The position numbers and the translations under genes were made by a program. Positions 1,757-17,590 of a DNA stretch of 29,437 bases are shown piece after piece. Every line of letters begins with the position of its first letter. Within the stretch, counting starts at the first letter, position 1. Under the pieces are notes generated by a model that saw only the letters and a program-made list of their open reading frames with translations, had not been told where the DNA came from and made no database searches. The stretch covers positions 1-29,437 of the IMG/VR virus record IMGVR_UViG_3300036785_000595. One strand, 5' to 3'. The stretch comes from a virus.

Positions 1757-2518
1757 ATGCACCAGGTTGTTTCCGACAAAGAAGGGCGGCTGAATACCGT
1801 AGTCAATGCCGCGATCGCTGCCGGCGGGCAGGTTCACGTCAAGCCGCAACCTGCCGCCAGCGCGGCGCAGCAAGTTATTTCGGTGGACGACACGCTGTGT
1901 TCACCATTTCGTCTCGAGGTGGTTTTGAAATATGCTTTCCTCGCGTGCCACCTCGATGGCGAGCTGTGGGAGCTCGGCGTTTACAAAGGCGGATCGGCGA
2001 CGATCTTGGGACACTACGCCGCGATGGCTGGCAAGAAAGTGCGGCTGTTTGATTCCTTTGCCGGGCTCCCTGAACCTTGCGCTTTGGATGTGCCCGAAGG
2101 CGGCATGACGCAGTTTGGTGAAGTGGTGATGCACAAAGGCGAGTGGACAAACACGGATGTGGAGCTCGTGCGTCAGAGAATGCCGAAGGGTTGCGATTAT
2201 GAAATTCACCAGGGTTTTGTGCCTGACACTTTGGCTGGGCTGGAAGATTGCCGAGTGGGATTTGCTCACTTGGATCTTGACCTGTACGAAGGCACGAAAG
2301 CTGCCTTGCAGTTTCTATATCCGCGCATGGTGCCCAACGGAGTGATCGTTTGCGATGATTATAACTACCCGCGCAATCCTGGCGTGATGCTCGCCGTTCG
2401 ACAAACGCTGCCAGAAAACTTTCGGATCTGGAGTGAAGCAGACCAACAGGCCGTGTTGAAACGAAACGTCGAGTACGCAGCCACCGTGGAGGTGCCTAAA
2501 AATGGCGATCACGCATGA
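1757..2518 (+). CDS. TylF/MycF-family SAM-dependent O-methyltransferase
   Basis: The 253-aa protein has the signature of the TylF/macrocin O-methyltransferase family. The SAM-binding motif I is GELWELGVYKGGSA (residues 68-81). 'LFDSFAGLPEP' (97-107) is the strand-loop typical of this family, and 'FAHLDLDLYEGTKAAL' (169-184) plus 'CDDYNYP' (199-205) supply the acidic residues that bind metal and substrate. Members transfer a methyl group from S-adenosylmethionine to a sugar hydroxyl, usually with Mg2+. The first 45 residues are less conserved. In a phage it may methylate a surface or virion glycan, or another small molecule; the substrate is unknown. It overlaps the Acb2/Tad1-like gene by 17 bases, which suggests translational coupling. 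Confidence 0.85.
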   Translation: MHQVVSDKEGRLNTVVNAAIAAGGQVHVKPQPAASAAQQVISVDDTLCSPFRLEVVLKYAFLACHLDGELWELGVYKGGSATILGHYAAMAGKKVRLFDSFAGLPEPCALDVPEGGMTQFGEVVMHKGEWTNTDVELVRQRMPKGCDYEIHQGFVPDTLAGLEDCRVGFAHLDLDLYEGTKAALQFLYPRMVPNGVIVCDDYNYPRNPGVMLAVRQTLPENFRIWSEADQQAVLKRNVEYAATVEVPKNGDHA

Positions 2519-2720
2519 GCAGCTGGAAAATTGGTTCACGTATCACGCACCCGAAGGCGATCAGCAGAAGCAGTACGTGGCGATTCGCGAGGCGGGCCTG
2601 GCGCTGGCGAAGGTGATCGTGGCCAACTCGCCGGCGTCGGCCGATCAAACGGCAGCCATCCGCAAAGTGCGCGAAGCGGTGATGACTGCGAATCAATCCA
2701 TCGCGTGCAAAGGACAATAA
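2502..2720 (+). CDS. acb2: Acb2/Tad1-family cyclic-nucleotide sponge (anti-CBASS / anti-Thoeris)
   Basis: This 72-aa protein matches the Acb2/Tad1 hairpin family by its conserved pattern: 'LENWFTYHAPEGDQQKQY' (8-25), 'IREAGLALAKVI' (28-39), 'SPASADQTAAIRKVREAVM' (43-61), then 'TANQSIAC'. Known members form oligomers that bind and sequester immune signals: Acb2 takes up cyclic di- and trinucleotides of CBASS, and Tad1 takes up the glycocyclic ADP-ribose of Thoeris. The Tyr in 'FTYH' (residue 14) and the basic residue after 'AI' (Arg29) sit where ligand-contact residues are expected, judged by eye. I cannot tell from sequence which ligand it binds. The start lies inside the methyltransferase gene (17-base overlap), so the two are probably co-expressed. 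Confidence 0.85.
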   Translation: MAITHEQLENWFTYHAPEGDQQKQYVAIREAGLALAKVIVANSPASADQTAAIRKVREAVMTANQSIACKGQ

Positions 2721-2724
2721 CCCC

Positions 2725-3018
2725 GTGAAGTACATCGCGAAGCCGATCGTAGTCGATGCTTGGGAAATTACGGACGTGGCCAAGGAAGCCAAACACCTAG
2801 TGCGCAACGAAACGGGAAGCGATTGGGTGGGCGGCGAAACGAAATTGCTGTTCGCCGACCGCGAGGAATTTATCTGCGATGAGGGAATGACGGCGCGGAT
2901 GGATCCGAAGCCCGGAGATTACCTCGTGATGCAGAGTGACGGTTATGTGTACCTCAACCCCAAAGATGTTTTCGAAGGGAAGTACGGACTAAAAAAAAAC
3001 GCGAATCAGGACGAGTAA
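2725..3018 (+). CDS. Small phage protein of the 'GDYL..G..Y....F...Y' type
   Basis: A GTG start at 2725 follows an AAAGGA site 11-12 bases upstream. The 97-aa sequence has the layout of a very common small phage protein of unknown function: an N-terminal 'KPIVVDAWEI' strand, a middle segment, then 'GMTARMDPKPGDYLVMQSDG' and 'VYLNPKDVFEGKYG'. In that family the conserved part is G-D-Y/W-hydrophobic, then G, Y, and a final F-x3-Y. The function of the family is not established to my knowledge. Its place right after the Acb2/Tad1 homologue suggests an accessory or early role. Confidence 0.6.
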   Translation: MKYIAKPIVVDAWEITDVAKEAKHLVRNETGSDWVGGETKLLFADREEFICDEGMTARMDPKPGDYLVMQSDGYVYLNPKDVFEGKYGLKKNANQDE

Positions 3019-3021
3019 AAG

Positions 3022-3339
3022 ATGGGATTCGACGGCGCACAACAAGGCGTAGATCTTAGAAACCCGCCACCGTTTGCGGGTGAGTGGGAGCTGCGTCTCG
3101 AGGATGCTGGCGTGTTGAATGACGCATGCGACGGCCGGAATTGGGCGTATCTTTCGGAGATTTGCATCGCGGAAGGCAATGCGCGAACGTCGGCGCTGGC
3201 TTTGAACGCAGTGGTTTTTTGCGAACCGGAGTGGGGATTCGATATCGTGGGCGTAGGCGTGGGAAACTATCGCGGTGGTATGCTTTCGGGCGGTGGCCAG
3301 CTCGGGAACACTGCCGGCGGATTGACGGTGGCCTGGTGA
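3022..3339 (+). CDS. Hypothetical protein (105 aa)
   Basis: The ORF begins three bases after the previous stop and ends with TGATG, overlapping the next start. The product has a central acidic segment with three Cys (two near residues 35-50, one near 67) and a Gly-rich C-terminus. No family is recognised. The overlapping frame beginning at 3126 is a shadow in its first 71 codons and becomes real only from 3339. Function unknown. Confidence 0.6.
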   Translation: MGFDGAQQGVDLRNPPPFAGEWELRLEDAGVLNDACDGRNWAYLSEICIAEGNARTSALALNAVVFCEPEWGFDIVGVGVGNYRGGMLSGGGQLGNTAGGLTVAW

Positions 3340-3587
3340 TGGTTTGGATTGATGGCGGTCCCAATAAGCCGGAAGATCGAAAACTAGGGAGACTTTTGCC
3401 GCCGGCGGATGAGTGGGTGACGGTAGTAGAGAAGTTCACCAAGCACCCGGATGGGAAAATCACGGTGAGTCGATGGATCGAAACTCAATCGGGCGAAGGT
3501 ATTTTTCTCGATAAAGACGTCGAGTGCCCCATTACTTTTTTGGAGATGGAAGGGCGCCGATTGTGGGATGTGAAACCAAGTGTCTGA
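3339..3587 (+). CDS. Hypothetical protein (82 aa)
   Basis: I placed the start at the ATG in the TGATG junction with the previous gene (3337-3341). A longer reading from 3126 would run across the whole second half of that gene and is unlikely. The product is a compact mix of short strands and loops, with Trp residues near positions 3, 27 and 46. It is not a recognised family. Its stop overlaps the next gene's GTG by 8 bases. Function unknown. Confidence 0.55.
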   Translation: MVWIDGGPNKPEDRKLGRLLPPADEWVTVVEKFTKHPDGKITVSRWIETQSGEGIFLDKDVECPITFLEMEGRRLWDVKPSV

Positions 3588-3903
3588 CGACGAATCAAAA
3601 CTGCGTCGCGATTTTAAGATTCGCGGCATCGCGGCCTCGGAATTCGATACGGTGCGCGGAACTATGTGCACCAAAGATGAATTCGGCGGCTGGGGAGCGG
3701 ATCTCTCTGGCAAGCCGTATCAGCTGAACGATGGGCGCGGCGTGATCGGCTCGAGGTCGGAAAAAATGTCCTATGCCGAGGCGCTGGCCGTGAAGGATAA
3801 CGAGCTGTGCATTCACGGAAACAAAACTACGGAGTGCCCGTACCGCCAGCAAGGCCAGGCAACTTGCCGCGTGGCCGTGACGGACGGCCGGCCGATGTTC
3901 TGA
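3580..3903 (+). CDS. Hypothetical protein with C-terminal Cys/His cluster
   Basis: This 107-aa frame starts with GTG inside the previous gene's end (8-base overlap). The N-terminal 70 residues are mixed and charged, including 'RGTMCTKDEFGGWGAD'. Near residues 76-96 there is a Cys/His cluster, 'ELCIHGNKTTECPYR' and then 'ATCRV', giving C-x-H, C and C ligands that could hold a zinc ion. No family is recognised. It belongs to the unknown part of the accessory block downstream of the Acb2/Tad1 homologue. Confidence 0.55.
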   Translation: MSDDESKLRRDFKIRGIAASEFDTVRGTMCTKDEFGGWGADLSGKPYQLNDGRGVIGSRSEKMSYAEALAVKDNELCIHGNKTTECPYRQQGQATCRVAVTDGRPMF

Positions 3904-3910
3904 GAAAAAA

Positions 3911-4195
3911 ATGCTACCGACAAGCGGACAGGCAAAAGTAAGCGGCGGGAAATTCGGGCTCAACAAAAAAGTCGCGGACACCTCGCACCAGAATTCTCCG
4001 TTTCGCGATCTCGAGAAAGATGGCCACGAGCTGAACCACGGCTATAAAGTGCCGGCCGCGAATCTCACGGGCGTGAATCACAGCTATATGCACCCGCTCG
4101 TGCCGGGCCTTCCTGGCGGCACGCCGCCGGGATTTCCGACACCGAAGATACAAAAAATTTCACCGCTCGATCAGCATGGCAAGGGCGGCAAGTAA
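3911..4195 (+). CDS. Hypothetical protein, His/Pro/Gly-rich (94 aa)
   Basis: An ATG start lies seven bases after the previous stop, with only a weak GAGAAAAA stretch as a ribosome binding site. The product is hydrophilic in its first half. The second half is rich in Pro, Gly and His ('HPLVPGLPGGTPPGFPTPK'), probably extended or disordered, and it ends HGKGGK. No family is recognised. It is followed by about 93 bases without a gene that hold two inverted repeats. Confidence 0.5.
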   Translation: MLPTSGQAKVSGGKFGLNKKVADTSHQNSPFRDLEKDGHELNHGYKVPAANLTGVNHSYMHPLVPGLPGGTPPGFPTPKIQKISPLDQHGKGGK

Positions 4196-4201
4196 TCCCA
4201 C

Positions 4202-4265
4202 GTCTAAACCGTTAGACAAGGCATGAGGCGGCCGAAGGGCAAGCCGTGTAGACGGCGGCCGCCTC
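4202..4265 (+). promoter_or_regulatory. Two inverted repeats in the leader of the crAss001_48-like gene
   Basis: The gap at 4196-4288 contains a 6-bp palindrome GTCTAA-accg-TTAGAC (4202-4217), then a perfect 10-bp inverted repeat GAGGCGGCCG (4225-4234) and CGGCCGCCTC (4256-4265) with a 21-base loop. A short T-run (ATTTTT) and a strong AAGGAG ribosome binding site follow before the ATG at 4289. The GC-rich hairpin plus T-run could be a weak terminator or attenuator, and the short palindrome could be an operator. Neither role is proven by sequence alone. It is one of the few real gaps in this packed operon. Confidence 0.4.
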
Positions 4266-4288
4266 TAGGATTTTTAAGGAGAAACAAC

Positions 4289-4573
4289 ATGACGCAAGGC
4301 TATCCAGGCGGGGATTTCGGCAACGAAGCGCCGATCGTGGCTCACCGGGAACGGGTGATTGTGGACGAAGCGCCGATGTCTTACCAGGAACGGGTGATTG
4401 CGGAGAAAGCAGAGCTCGATGAAAGAATCGCAAAGCTAGGCAATTTCATCGCGGGGGGAGCGTTCGTCGGGGTGCCTGGTGCGGAGCAGGCCCGCTTGAG
4501 GGCACAGGCGAACCTGATGCAGCAGTATTCCAAAATTCTTGGCGAACGCATCAACGAATTTCAAGGCGTATAA
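4289..4573 (+). CDS. crAss001_48-related protein
   Basis: The ATG at 4289 was chosen because AAGGAG lies 8 bases upstream; the longer frame from 4223 reads through the hairpin region. The 94-aa product carries the pattern of the widespread phage family called crAss001_48-related: 'YQERVIAEKAELDERIAKLG' (residues about 32-51), then 'FI', and a C-terminal helix 'LRAQANLMQQYSKILGERI'. The family is helical, and its function is not established as far as I know. It often turns up in phage accessory regions. The N-terminus contains a 14-residue duplication (see the separate repeat entry). Confidence 0.75.
   Translation: MTQGYPGGDFGNEAPIVAHRERVIVDEAPMSYQERVIAEKAELDERIAKLGNFIAGGAFVGVPGAEQARLRAQANLMQQYSKILGERINEFQGV
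4325..4408 (+). repeat. In-frame tandem duplication of 42 bases
   Basis: Two adjacent 42-base units (4325-4366 and 4367-4408) encode 14 residues each: EAPIVAHRERVIVD followed by EAPMSYQERVIAEK. The longest matching runs are GAAGCGCCGAT and GGAACGGGTGATTG. The second copy is the one that fits the conserved start of the crAss001_48-like domain, so the first copy is probably the added one. It keeps the reading frame. Confidence 0.75.
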
Positions 4574-4619
4574 GCCTAACGCGAAGTGGCAGCACACCCA
4601 CGCAGCAAGGAAGTTTCTC

Positions 4620-4907
4620 ATGGCAGAACTGGTTCAACCGGGAAACAAAATGCCGCTCGGCGAGGATCCTTCGCCCAACAGCTCGAGCTCTCGCGAGGAT
4701 GCTATTCTCGAGAAAAGCAAATCGCTCGCATTCCCCAGCGGAGCTTGTCTCCCGCTCGAGAATTTCGAACACAAAGGCGATCGCCCGGCCGGCCACCAAA
4801 ATTCCATCGCGGACATGACGCACCTTAGCGGCAAGGAACTGCAGGAATCTTACCGCGCCGGCTTGCCAATGTCGGCAGCCAACCACGACAAAGTAACCGA
4901 CCGATAA
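4620..4907 (+). CDS. Hypothetical protein (95 aa)
   Basis: The ATG at 4620 has a good AGGAAG ribosome binding site 6-8 bases upstream; the frame's earlier ATG at 4539 would overlap the crAss001_48-like gene by 35 bases and lacks such a site. The product is hydrophilic, with a Ser-rich stretch (residues about 20-27) and no recognisable domain. It lies just before a DUF6496-like gene and the large terminase. It may be a small virion or packaging accessory protein, but this is a guess from position only. Confidence 0.55.
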   Translation: MAELVQPGNKMPLGEDPSPNSSSSREDAILEKSKSLAFPSGACLPLENFEHKGDRPAGHQNSIADMTHLSGKELQESYRAGLPMSAANHDKVTDR

Positions 4908-4918
4908 CGGGGGCGGCT

Positions 4919-5092
4919 GTGGCTAAAGCCGTTCCGAAGTCGCCAAAATCTCGCGCAAAGGTGCGGAAAACTATGCGCGAATTCAAAAAGGGCAAGCTGC
5001 ATTCCGGCTCGAAAAAAGGTCCGAAGGTCAAAGATTATTCGCAGGCTGTAGCGATTGCTCTCTCCCAGGCTCGCAAGGCGGCGGGAAAATGA
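4919..5092 (+). CDS. DUF6496-like small basic protein
   Basis: This 57-aa ORF starts with GTG after a GGGGGCGG stretch and ends on an ATGA overlap with the large terminase. Its core, 'MREFKKGKLHSGSKKGP' then 'KDYSQAVAIALSQARKA', matches the DUF6496 pattern (E-F-K-x-G-x-L-x-S-G-S ... K-QA-IAIAL-S-A) seen in small basic proteins of phages and bacteria. About a third of the residues are Lys or Arg, so nucleic-acid binding is plausible but unproven. Its tight coupling to TerL suggests a role around packaging or early infection (inference). Confidence 0.75.
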   Translation: MAKAVPKSPKSRAKVRKTMREFKKGKLHSGSKKGPKVKDYSQAVAIALSQARKAAGK

Positions 5093-6648
5093 ACACCGTT
5101 CGCCAGTCGATCGCGGAGCTGGGCAAAACCGATCTATTTTTCCTCTGCAAAGAAATCCTCGGGTACGACAAGATGGTGGATCGCGTGCACCGGCCGGTTT
5201 GCAATAACTACGCGAAAAAACGGCCGGGCGTTCCTCTCGTGCTGCAGGACACGGTTAAAAATCGCTTACTGCTCGATGCTCGCGGCCACTACAAATCCTC
5301 GATCAACATGGGCGACAAGATCCAGTGGATGCTGATTGATCCCAACGTGCAAATCATCCTGCTGTCTGGATCGCAGCCGCGCACCAAAGAGATGATCGCG
5401 GAGATGAAATTACATTTCATTCAAAACGAAAAATTTCGCCAGGTCTATCCCGAGTTTGTGCCGCCCGACGGAATTCAGGATTGGGGAAATACTTCTGGAT
5501 TCACCACGCCGGCACGCACCCTGGCCAAACGCTCACCCACCATCACGATCGGAACGATTGGAACGGTGAAGGCTTCGGCGCACTACGATCTGAGAGACGG
5601 TGACGACGTAGTGAACGAAATCAATTCAGCCACCCGCGAAGGCTGCCAGGAAACCGTGCGCCGCTGGAATCACACTCGCCCGCTCTTAAATCCTGGCGGC
5701 TATACTCACCTCACCGGAACCTGCTACGATTTTTCAGATCTCTACTCGCAAACCATCGAGCGCGGGCAAGCGGTCTGGAAAATTTTCCGGCGCGGCGCCT
5801 GGGTAGTCGATGAAACCGGCCGGCGGATTGTGACTTTTCCCGAGCAGTTCTGCACGGACGACGATCCGGATCCGGCCAAGGCTAATCTGGACGACATACG
5901 CCGGGAAATTGGCGACGTCATGTTTGCCGCGCAATATCTCAACGATCCTGTGGCCACCGTTTCGCCACGCTTCCCGCTCGATCTCCTGATGCAGCAAACG
6001 ATCTCGCGCAAACAGATGCCGGCGGACATGGCCATGTTTCTGGTGTTTGACCTGGCCGCCACAGCCAAAGATGAGTCGGACGAAACCACTGGAATTTTTG
6101 GAGGCTGGGGCAGAGACGGATCGCTGTTTGTGTTCGATGGATTTTTCGGGATCTGGAATGCTTCGCAAATTATTCAGGCAGTGATCGGCGGGGCTCGCAA
6201 GTGGTCGATCAATCGCGTGGGCATCGAGGATGCGGTAGGCGTGCAGCTGATCGAGCCCGGCCTGTACGCGAAAATGAAAGAGCTGGGAGTCAACCTGCAA
6301 GTCGATTGGCTGAAAGTGCCGCGGATCAAAGGCCGAAAAGAGATCGCTATCAGCTCGCTCGAGGCGCTGCTGGTGCAGAAAAAACTTTGGTTTGCGAGCG
6401 AGATGCCGATCCTTCCGCACCTCTACACGCAATTTACTCGCTTCCCGAAATACAAACAGGATGGAATTCCGGACGCGATTACTTTACTGCAGCACTACCG
6501 CGGCCTGGCGCCGGCCAACCGCTATTTGGAAGATCCCGTGTCCACTGAAATTGGCGGGGCTTCCGGCTACTCTCCGTTTTCCGACATGAACGACGGGCCC
6601 TCGCCTGACGGCGACTATGAAGGGCTCAGTGCGGGGTTGGTGGGATGA
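5089..6648 (+). CDS. terL: Terminase large subunit (packaging ATPase/nuclease)
   Basis: A 519-aa protein with the expected two-domain order. The N-terminal ATPase has a deviant Walker A, RGHYKSS (residues 65-71), and a Walker B-like segment YDLRDGDDVVNE (166-177). 'MFAAQYLNDPV' (278-288) is a typical linker motif in this family. The C-terminal RNase H-like nuclease has 'MFLVFDLAATAKDESDET' with Asp321, a second acidic site in 'VGIEDAVGVQ', and a third in 'GIPDAI'. It cuts concatemeric DNA and pumps it into the prohead through the portal at 6863. Length is normal. The start and stop both overlap neighbouring genes (ATGA). Confidence 0.93.
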   Translation: MNTVRQSIAELGKTDLFFLCKEILGYDKMVDRVHRPVCNNYAKKRPGVPLVLQDTVKNRLLLDARGHYKSSINMGDKIQWMLIDPNVQIILLSGSQPRTKEMIAEMKLHFIQNEKFRQVYPEFVPPDGIQDWGNTSGFTTPARTLAKRSPTITIGTIGTVKASAHYDLRDGDDVVNEINSATREGCQETVRRWNHTRPLLNPGGYTHLTGTCYDFSDLYSQTIERGQAVWKIFRRGAWVVDETGRRIVTFPEQFCTDDDPDPAKANLDDIRREIGDVMFAAQYLNDPVATVSPRFPLDLLMQQTISRKQMPADMAMFLVFDLAATAKDESDETTGIFGGWGRDGSLFVFDGFFGIWNASQIIQAVIGGARKWSINRVGIEDAVGVQLIEPGLYAKMKELGVNLQVDWLKVPRIKGRKEIAISSLEALLVQKKLWFASEMPILPHLYTQFTRFPKYKQDGIPDAITLLQHYRGLAPANRYLEDPVSTEIGGASGYSPFSDMNDGPSPDGDYEGLSAGLVG

Positions 6649-6863
6649 GATTCCCGCACATTCTCGCTCGATTCGCGCCGAATCGGCGCTGCACTCGCTG
6701 TGGCCGAGTGGGCTACTGCGAAGCTACGATCCACCTGTGCGGATCCTGCTTTGGAATTCACATTGCTTTTTTCGAGGCGCGTCTCAAGATCATCACTCAA
6801 CGGGCCGCCAAGCCGAGTCGTAAGTTTCATCGAGTCGAAACACCTATGCAACGGGTGAACTGA
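6645..6863 (+). CDS. 72-aa zinc-ribbon-like protein between TerL and portal
   Basis: It starts on an ATGA overlap with TerL and ends on TGATG at the portal start. Cys pairs C-T-R-C (residues 16-19) and C-G-S-C (32-35), with a further Cys at 25, give a zinc-ribbon layout. The rest is basic (Arg/Lys-rich C-terminal half). Its position in the packaging operon hints at a DNA- or terminase-related role, but no family is recognised. Confidence 0.6.
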   Translation: MRFPHILARFAPNRRCTRCGRVGYCEATIHLCGSCFGIHIAFFEARLKIITQRAAKPSRKFHRVETPMQRVN

Positions 6864-9007
6864 TGGCGCTGCTCGATACCCCGCCCGATCTGCACGGTGA
6901 TCTTGATCCCAAAAGTATCCCTGCCCTGCCGCGGCTGCCTGCCGATCTGGATGCCGTAAAGCTGGTCCTGAAAAACCTCAATCGCGCCGAATATTATCTG
7001 CTCGCGAAAGGGCTCACGGTCGAGTGGGACAAAGACGATCGCCTATATCTGTTTCGCATGCCGCAAGCATTTTGGGAAGGCTCGAGCGTGCCGCGCAGCT
7101 CGCTCGGAATTCCCCTGTGCCTCGAGCACATCGAAGCCACCATGCGACAGATCATGCCTACGCTGTTTCCCGATTCCGATCCGTTCATGTGTGAGCCGGA
7201 ACCTGGCACCGAGCGCGGCGCCGCAGATGCAAATCGCGTAGTGATTTCCAAACAGCTCAAGGCCACAGGTTTCAAAGAAGAAACCCGCCTGGGCGTGAAG
7301 TGTGCCACCACCTACGGCAGTGCGATTTTCAAATTTTTCTGGAAACGAACGAAGCGAGTGAAGCGGAGTTGGGCTTGGTCTGAGCCGATCAGTAAACAAC
7401 AAACCGATATGGGCGTGGTGGACGCGCCGAAAAAACGCCGGAAGATGGTGGAAACCGTCGAGGAAGTTTGGACAAACGGGCCCGGCGTTGAAAATTGCTA
7501 CATCCGGCACATCATTCTGGATCCCGATCTGCGCGTGCCGGATATTCGCTTAGCAAAATACGCGATCCATCGCACCTATCCCACGATGGAGGAAATTGAC
7601 GATCTTAGGAACACCCCCGGCTTTAAGATCCCGCCGCTAAATGATCTTTTGACGCTGATGCAGCCGCCGAAGGAAACCCCCGAGCGATCGCTGCTCGAGG
7701 GCCGATCGACCTCGAGCGTTTTGAACACGGGAATCAGCTCGCTCGATATCAACATGGAATTTCGGGCGATGCCGCGGTGGCAGGAATCGAGTGCGGATCC
7801 CAACCAGGGCAAGCTCGAGCTCTTGGAATACTGGACACCGGAGCGAGTGATCTATGTCCTCAACAGGAAACTGTGTCTTAAAAACGACCTTAATCCCTTT
7901 GGGAAAATCCCGTTTCTATCTTTTTGCTACATTGACGTGCTGGATTCATTCTACGGCCTCGGTATCTGTAAACTTATCGGGGGAGAACAACGGTTACAGC
8001 AGGGCGTTATCAATTCTCGACTCGATGATCTCGCCCTGCGGTTGTCGGGCACGTTCCTGCGCAAGCGCGGATCCAACACTCCGACTCAACAGCTCCGGCT
8101 TCGCCCCGGAGGCATAATCGACTCAGACGACGAAAAGGGCGTGCAGATGATTCAATACCCGCCCGCGATCGTAGATGCGTTCACCGAAGTGGAGGCTTCG
8201 GACATGCGGGCCCAGCGCCGCACAGCGGCCAATTCCGCCGTGACTCAGGGTACGGTGCCGCAGCAAGGCCAGATCGGCCGCACGGCCACCGGGATGGACA
8301 CGATCGCCGCGGCGGTGGGAACGGCGATGGGATACTTTGTCGATTTCATCGCCGATCTTTATTTCGTTCCGCTGCTCGAGGCTTTCCATGAAATGAATTG
8401 CATGTGGCTCGAGGATGAAGATATCGAAGAGCTGCTGACTGCCGATCAGATGGAGCTCTATAAAATCGACGCTTGCGGGCTGAAAAATGCCAACCTGGCA
8501 TTCAACGTCGAAGCGGGTACCAGGCTGCGGGCAAAACAAGCGATGGCCGGCCAGCTGATGAACATCATCACGCTGCTGCAGCAATCCGCAGTGCAAGAAT
8601 CGCTCTCCGATCAAGAGTACAAAACCGATTGGGCGAAGCTGATCGACATGATGTATGACACAACGAGCTGGCCAGGCAAGCAAGAGCTGATCGTCAAAAT
8701 GACGGACGACGACAAAAAACGTGCAGCTCAGAAAGCACAGGTGGCGCAGCAAATGAGCCTCGAATCGCAGAAGCACACAAGCCGCATGGCTGAGATTGAA
8801 CAGAAAGGCGTTGCAACCCTTTCGACTAAGATAGTAGAGTCCCTGCTTGCAGAGATGAGTCCGGAAGGAAAGAAAGCACTGCTCGAGCTGAACCAGGCTG
8901 CGCAGGCCGCGGCCGAGCAACAGCAAAACGGAAATGGACAACAGCCAGCACCAGCCGGCGGCGGCGGATCGAGCAACGGAAGTAACGGCGCTGGTGCTGC
9001 TGCGTGA
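6863..9007 (+). CDS. Portal protein
   Basis: A 714-aa protein directly after TerL. The middle holds typical portal features: a long mixed alpha/beta body, 'NPFGKIPFLSF' (near residue 346), 'SFYGLGICKLIGGEQRLQQG' and 'VINSRLDDLALRL' (crown/wing to stem region), and 'GRTATGMDTI', a loop also seen in podovirus portals. The last about 100 residues are a Gln/Ala-rich coiled coil followed by a Gly/Asn/Ser-rich tail. The portal forms the dodecameric ring for DNA entry and exit. The length suits portals of short-tailed phages. The assignment rests on sequence pattern, length and position. Confidence 0.85.
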   Translation: MALLDTPPDLHGDLDPKSIPALPRLPADLDAVKLVLKNLNRAEYYLLAKGLTVEWDKDDRLYLFRMPQAFWEGSSVPRSSLGIPLCLEHIEATMRQIMPTLFPDSDPFMCEPEPGTERGAADANRVVISKQLKATGFKEETRLGVKCATTYGSAIFKFFWKRTKRVKRSWAWSEPISKQQTDMGVVDAPKKRRKMVETVEEVWTNGPGVENCYIRHIILDPDLRVPDIRLAKYAIHRTYPTMEEIDDLRNTPGFKIPPLNDLLTLMQPPKETPERSLLEGRSTSSVLNTGISSLDINMEFRAMPRWQESSADPNQGKLELLEYWTPERVIYVLNRKLCLKNDLNPFGKIPFLSFCYIDVLDSFYGLGICKLIGGEQRLQQGVINSRLDDLALRLSGTFLRKRGSNTPTQQLRLRPGGIIDSDDEKGVQMIQYPPAIVDAFTEVEASDMRAQRRTAANSAVTQGTVPQQGQIGRTATGMDTIAAAVGTAMGYFVDFIADLYFVPLLEAFHEMNCMWLEDEDIEELLTADQMELYKIDACGLKNANLAFNVEAGTRLRAKQAMAGQLMNIITLLQQSAVQESLSDQEYKTDWAKLIDMMYDTTSWPGKQELIVKMTDDDKKRAAQKAQVAQQMSLESQKHTSRMAEIEQKGVATLSTKIVESLLAEMSPEGKKALLELNQAAQAAAEQQQNGNGQQPAPAGGGGSSNGSNGAGAAA

Positions 9008-16794: not shown

Positions 16795-16958
16795 ACCAAT
16801 GCGACTGGCCCAAAAAAGGCTGGCTGCGCTGCAATGTCGCGGCGACTACGCAAGTGGGCGAACGGTTCTATTGAAGAAAGCACACTGTGTTCGTCGAACA
16901 CAATCGCAGGTGGATCGCGGGAGGATGGGCGTGGGCGTTTGTGAAACCTAGAAAATGA
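16791..16958 (+). CDS. Zinc-ribbon-like small ORF interrupted by an in-frame UGA
   Basis: A GTG start overlaps the previous stop (GTGA) and has an AAAGGA site upstream. The frame gives 27 residues to a TGA at 16872-16874, then stays open for another 27 codons to a TGA at 16956 that overlaps the ATG of the next gene (ATGA), the usual junction of this genome. Read through, the pattern is C-D-W-P ... R-C-N ... G-E-R-F-Y-(UGA)-R-K-H, where a Cys is expected at the UGA. So it may be a ~55-aa zinc ribbon broken by one nonsense change, a sequencing error, or recoded. Alternatively two tiny ORFs exist (16791-16874 and 16887-16958). Confidence 0.45.
16886..16902 (+). promoter_or_regulatory. Hairpin 11 bases after the in-frame UGA (SECIS-like spacing)
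   Basis: TGTGTT (16886-16891) and AACACA (16897-16902) pair perfectly around a 5-base loop CGTCG. The 17-base stem-loop starts 11 bases after the UGA codon, which is the spacing of the minimal upper stem-loop in the E. coli fdhF SECIS, and the loop has a G in its second position. It may also be coincidence or a simple coding palindrome. Confidence 0.3.
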
Positions 16959-17590
16959 GCATTGCAGACAGGATCGGCGAGGTGCTGCTCTACATCAGCC
17001 GGCATGCGAATGTGGGGATGGATTCGGCCGGCAAGATCCGCGGGCTCGTGAACGATGAACTCGATGAAGAAGGCCAGGCCCAGGCACTCGAGCTCAGAGA
17101 TTACTTTGAGGGGATTCCGCTCTCTGGTATCTACTGCGATGATCTCGAGCGCACCTATCAAACCGTCTTGCCACTCGCAGAAGCGAAAGCAATCGAAATT
17201 ACTCGGGATATTGCCCTGCGCAGCTGGGATGTGGGCCCCGAGCTCGAGGGGAAGTCGATCGACGCGCATGCCGCCGAAATTGCGGAGCTCAAACAACAGC
17301 CTTGGAAAATACCAGTGGGCGGGCAGGCATGGGGCATCTACCAGGATCAAATTCTTACAGCTTTCGATCGCTACTCAAATCTCGCCATGGCCATGCCGCA
17401 CCCGATTTTGCTTTGCATGCACGGATCGGGGATTTCGGTGATAGCCTGCACGCTGGGAGCTGCAGATCCGAGCGCGGAATATGAGCATACCTTTCTCGAG
17501 CCGGCCGGGATCGCGGCCGTATATTTGACGCGAATGGACGGCCTAGACATGCGAGCACTCAAAGGCGGCAAAGGTTCGGAAGATGAGTGA
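16955..17590 (+). CDS. Histidine phosphatase superfamily protein (phosphoglycerate mutase-like)
   Basis: A 211-aa protein with the layout of this superfamily: 'LLYISRHANVGMDSAGKIRG' has the catalytic His17 in an RHA version of the RHG motif. 'LDEEGQAQALELRDYF' is the conserved E-G-x-x-Q-A helix, 'IYCDDLERTYQT' carries the phosphate-binding Arg66, and 'PILLCMHGSGI' has the second active His156. Such enzymes remove phosphate from small molecules or proteins through a phospho-histidine. The substrate here is unknown. In a phage it could act on nucleotides or on host phospho-metabolites or signals. The stop overlaps the next gene by 8 bases. Confidence 0.85.
   Translation: MSIADRIGEVLLYISRHANVGMDSAGKIRGLVNDELDEEGQAQALELRDYFEGIPLSGIYCDDLERTYQTVLPLAEAKAIEITRDIALRSWDVGPELEGKSIDAHAAEIAELKQQPWKIPVGGQAWGIYQDQILTAFDRYSNLAMAMPHPILLCMHGSGISVIACTLGAADPSAEYEHTFLEPAGIAAVYLTRMDGLDMRALKGGKGSEDE

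Follow-up and report, generated by a model that had tools for sequence, protein, structure and literature searches.

A stand-alone Acb2/Tad1-hairpin protein of a variant subfamily, a probable immune-signal sponge encoded upstream of a viral large terminase gene

The DNA analysed here (hereafter, the window) comprises the 29.4 kb of a virus record that encodes an SU10-type portal; the virus infects bacteria and probably comes from soil. On the plus strand, at 2502-2720, lies a small gene whose translation is MAITHEQLENWFTYHAPEGDQQKQYVAIREAGLALAKVIVANSPASADQTAAIRKVREAVMTANQSIACKGQ (72 aa). On the evidence of Pfam PF24729, PHROG 1454, an AlphaFold2 model and a split into subfamilies, the product is a stand-alone Acb2/Tad1-hairpin protein, and it belongs to a variant subfamily with A47, D48, R54, R57, T62 and C69. 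Its likely ribosome-binding site, GGAGG (2488-2492, +), is nine bases from the ATG and within the preceding gene (1757-2518, +), which encodes a TylF-type methyltransferase (PF05711, 64 bits) and overlaps the hairpin gene by 17 bases (2502-2518). Downstream is a small, fast-diverging gene (2725-3018, +) that weakly matched PHROG 11049. A preliminary description of this DNA had placed the hairpin gene between the terminase genes. The large subunit (TerL) is evident at 5089-6648 (PHROG 38, E = 1.5e-39), but the supposed small subunit at 698-1129 matched no family or profile; its product starts LTPQEKVFVDTYL, which is reminiscent of small terminase subunits, and is 69% identical in a sibling record, L049. 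The window also carries, amid its tail or structural genes, a gene of the histidine phosphatase superfamily (16955-17590; PF00300, 74.6 bits). When the hairpin gene was compared with relatives about 66-78% identical to it, pS was 0.56-0.98, i.e., near saturation, and pN was 0.16-0.30 (mostly 0.16-0.24). Since pS is high and pN low, these values indicate that 2502-2720 is a real gene under strong purifying selection.

The 72-aa product can be placed with confidence, by profile matching, in the Acb2_Tad1_hairpin family. Against PF24729 it scored 41 bits, well above the curated cut-off of 27 (E = 2e-10; profile positions 1-58 of 58), compared with 71.5 bits for T4 Acb2 and 34.2 bits for the experimentally established Tad1 of SBSphiJ7. 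All 27 of the relatives aligned with it in our alignment A1 matched the profile individually, and the motif pieces noticed earlier (N-W-F-T-Y-H, I-R-E-A, A-I-R-K-x-R-E-A-V-M, and A-N-x-S-I-A) were all found in the product. The best PHROG was phrog_1454 (E 5.5e-15), followed by 31113. PHROG 717, to which the Acb2 proteins of T4, PaP2, and GAP32 were assigned, gave no match at E 0.1, nor was PHROG 2428, that of SBSphiJ7 Tad1, matched in the PHROG search. Since PHROG 1454 was matched best rather than 717 or 2428, the protein belongs to a third, stand-alone branch, distinct on these profiles from both Acb2 and Tad1 in the strict sense. Profile-profile comparisons with Acb2 (E 0.005, with the expected positions aligned) and Tad1 (E 0.03) were each weak alone, and the link to the family is therefore carried by Pfam and by PHROG 1454, which itself weakly matched both T4 Acb2 and SBSphiJ7 Tad1 in their last helix. 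Thus, the designation "Acb2/Tad1-type" held for the hairpin family, through the curated and bridging profiles, but not for Acb2 or Tad1 themselves. Among PDB sequences, phmmer with the single protein returned only chance helical matches and the A1 profile missed Acb2 and Tad1; with a mixed profile (A2), Tad1 chains and "Acb2 homolog 43" came up at E values that are suggestive only (0.025-0.2). The best of these solved-structure matches, PDB 9PTQ (E 0.025), for which our literature search found no paper, differs from the window protein in having the canonical pattern G-R-E...K-T-K-L-E-E. PADLOC and NCBIfam returned nothing for the protein.

Comparison with the named systems showed what is shared and what is not. 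Acb2 (T4 Vs.4; PaP2 p26) is likewise a stand-alone protein with the Pfam hairpin domain and a tyrosine and a basic residue 15 positions apart, but it is only about 10-24% identical to the window protein, which does not have the Acb2-invariant Asn20 and Arg79. Tad1 (SBSphiJ7; CbTad1, PDB 7UAV) shares the Pfam domain and a last helix that aligns without gaps, with the pattern A-I-x-K-[LV]-x-E-A-[LV]-M; however, Tad1 has an N-terminal beta domain and is about 125-142 aa long, whereas the window protein is a hairpin only, and the last-helix pattern of Tad1, R-E-x(5)-T-x(2)-E-x(4)-W, is replaced by A47, D48, R54, R57, and T62.

The AlphaFold2 model (mean pLDDT 89.5) predicts a short helix (residues 5-11) followed by two long antiparallel helices (22-42 and 47-68), and a short helix plus a long helical hairpin is the topology given for Acb2 (PMC12043709). 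A fold search of solved structures (Foldseek, VIA) returned unrelated helical bundles and no Acb2 or Tad1 chain; in a viral fold library the top named matches were Acb2/Tad1 hairpin proteins, with probability near 1 and E above 0.01. In T4 Acb2, cGAMP is contacted by Y8, which stacks, by K23, which forms a salt bridge, and by F82, H11, and R79; the substitution S74N disturbs binding, and the hexamer interface comprises L29, A66, A73, and A77 (PMC10097602). A lower affinity has also been reported for T68M (PMC12657230). Using a gap-free alignment of both helices with T4 Acb2, we found all four hexamer-interface residues to be kept (L35, A52, A59, and A63 in the window protein). The Tyr8/Lys23 pair was kept at identical spacing as Y14/R29, the lysine being replaced by arginine; Tyr14 (codon 2541-2543, +) also aligned with Tyr11 of PaP2 Acb2, and Arg29 (codon 2586-2588, +) with its Lys26. 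The pocket is thus preserved in part, but the other positions are changed: H11 to P17, S74 to V60, R79 to Q65, F82 to A68, and Thr68 to Arg54. Arg79 was invariant across 12 Acb2 sequences. Since PaP2 Acb2 does not have equivalents of T4 His11 and Phe82 either, those two losses alone do not exclude binding.

The change to Arg54 is part of a coordinated switch at six positions in helix 3 (residues 47-69; 2640-2708, +). In our set of 171 distinct relatives, 96 had R54 and R57, 73 had T54, and two were natural intermediates (L090 and L132); because the choice of queries shaped which relatives were sampled, these counts are not abundances. The variant group, which includes the window protein, has A/P47, D48, R54, R57, T62, and mostly C/L69, whereas the canonical group has R47, E48, T54, E57, W62, and R69. 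In the solved CbTad1 the first five of the six positions carry the canonical residues (R-E...T...E...W), and the threonine at position 54 is shared by T4 Acb2. The core kept in the variant subfamily comprises F12, Y14, H15, P17, R29, N64, and A68, and with A36 these are common to both groups. The canonical PHROG 1454 proteins of Paenibacillus and Gordonia phages resemble the window protein in length, in the N-terminal F-x-Y-H-x-P, and in R29, N64, and A68, but are about 40% identical to it and differ at the switch. A tree separated the two groups with a support of 0.92, and the split persisted when the six positions were masked (94/95, support 0.93). The simplest reading of these sequences is a single clade with a rebuilt binding site. 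What had been described as a divergent version is borne out, the third branch and the switched residues giving the term concrete content. The hairpin domain and the sponge principle are already known, and UniProt labels relatives "Acb2/Tad1 hairpin domain-containing"; in the papers that our literature search covered, which did not extend to several key subscription papers, we found neither the two-way split with its coordinated residue switch nor any mention of the stand-alone family under a Pfam or DUF number.

Taken together, we consider it probable (roughly 0.77) that the protein acts as a hexamer with a remodelled site that sponges up a nucleotide-derived signal of host immunity. Support for this reading is given by family membership, the predicted fold, the conserved core, purifying selection, and the exchange of the gene as an accessory, described below. 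Weighing against it are the changed equivalents of T4 R79, F82, H11, S74, and Thr68 and the failure of the fold searches to return any solved Acb2 or Tad1 chain, such chains being reached by sequence only at E 0.025-0.2. The stand-alone hairpin protein would assemble as a hexamer, and the hexamer would sequester an alarm molecule, either a cyclic oligonucleotide of CBASS or an ADP-ribose derivative of Thoeris, so that the host immune effector would not be switched on. Within this reading there is somewhat less than an even chance that the signals bound are the known ones (3'3'-cGAMP, other CDNs, cA3, or gcADPR) and that the changes in helix 3 either have no effect or compensate for one another. 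Variant and canonical subfamilies alike keep Y14 and R29 almost without exception, PaP2 Acb2, solved as an Acb2, has the same two absences noted above, and known sponges bind several ligands (PMC12043709), all of which would fit such a conservative outcome. Against it, the six positions switched together and are fixed in 96 distinct sequences, and they include the threonine whose change lowers the affinity of T4 Acb2 (PMC12657230). Since six positions switched together while the core was kept, the variant clade may prefer a ligand other than those of Acb2 and Tad1. A bolder and distinctly less probable proposal, which we put forward only tentatively, is that the 96 variant sequences constitute a functionally distinct class of sponge: with Arg54 and Arg57 rebuilding the site, they would take up a signal to which neither Acb2 nor Tad1 binds; if true, their existence would point to a host immune signal not yet described or not yet assigned. 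The six co-switched residues and the intermediates L090 and L132 allow a direct test of specificity, in which residues are swapped from one small protein to another. Since sponges reveal the immune signals that phages meet, a large clade whose site is altered throughout also offers ready-made baits with which to look for the signals of Acidobacteriota, Planctomycetota, and other bacteria that have been little studied.

The hairpin gene was also compared among loci. L049 (IMG/VR 3300047160_008186) is a syntenic sibling of the window, with a TerL 91% identical and most neighbours 55-90% identical. Its order, however, is methyltransferase (79% identical), the homologue of 2725-3018 (44% identical), and then a hairpin gene whose product is 64% identical to that of the window, i.e., on the other side of that homologue from the window's place. 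Within the L049 stretch 2338-8618, the hairpin gene and the 2725-3018 homologue were the most diverged genes, and their order was swapped. Comparison of the two records indicates that these two genes form a small island, open to exchange, ahead of the large terminase gene. Moreover, the window protein is closest to that of another phage, L002 (77-78%), whose TerL is only 28% identical. Since the sibling carries a different version elsewhere and the best match lies in a phage with so distant a terminase, the comparison indicates an accessory gene that is exchanged between phages, like counter-defence genes. A hairpin fold recruited for a non-immune task, e.g., in a small protein of the head, of packaging, or of host takeover, would agree with the position upstream of the large terminase gene in the window, L049, and L002. 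We consider this unlikely, since in other phages the gene is far from packaging genes, its neighbours are rarely shared across 114 related loci, and siblings with 91% identical terminases carry different versions of it. The claimed coupling to the methyltransferase was exact as to the 17-base overlap but is not conserved, and functional coupling was rejected on the gene order of L049, where the methyltransferase is retained and the hairpin gene lies elsewhere. Partnering or regulation of the methyltransferase by the hairpin protein, suggested by the overlap and by the ribosome-binding site inside the methyltransferase gene, is thus largely refuted and very improbable, since the 2725-3018 homologue intervenes in L049 and methyltransferases of this cluster (33) occurred within four neighbours on each side of the hairpin gene in no related locus besides the window and L049.

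The candidate sponge has relatives in other phages and other gene contexts. Nearly all variant members are in uncultivated phages; others occur in phages of Acidobacteriota and Mycobacterium, with copies in bacterial records. The closest named phage copy is gp101 of Tunturi_1, a phage of Tunturiibacter (Acidobacteriota), at 53% identity, and further variant relatives are found in the Mycobacterium phages Phabba, Myrna, and ScoobyDoobyDoo (41% identical to the window protein in the last); the variant pattern was seen in both Tunturi_1 and ScoobyDoobyDoo. These relatives are annotated as hypothetical or by domain name only, and the Tunturi phage paper contains no discussion of anti-defence. The TerL of the window best matched, though distantly (22%), that of another Tunturiibacter phage. 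Bacterial records with close copies include those of Acidicapsa, Pyrinomonadaceae, Geobacteraceae, and Planctomycetota, and many of these are metagenome bins. In ScoobyDoobyDoo, gp210 (L034, 2501-2947; 148 aa) adds a C-terminal extension to a hairpin of the variant type, and its gene adjoins two tRNA genes. In Gordonia phage Schomber (L036, 2489-4777), a hairpin gene of the canonical type is flanked by the portal gene on one side and, on the other, by genes annotated as RNA ligase and ADP-ribosyltransferase. Canonical hairpins of ~68 aa in L037 (2492-2695) and in other Paenibacillus phage records (H29-H33, H39-H43, H50-H53, and H58-H59) are annotated "phosphomannomutase", a label that, on these Paenibacillus phage hairpins, is probably a propagated misannotation.
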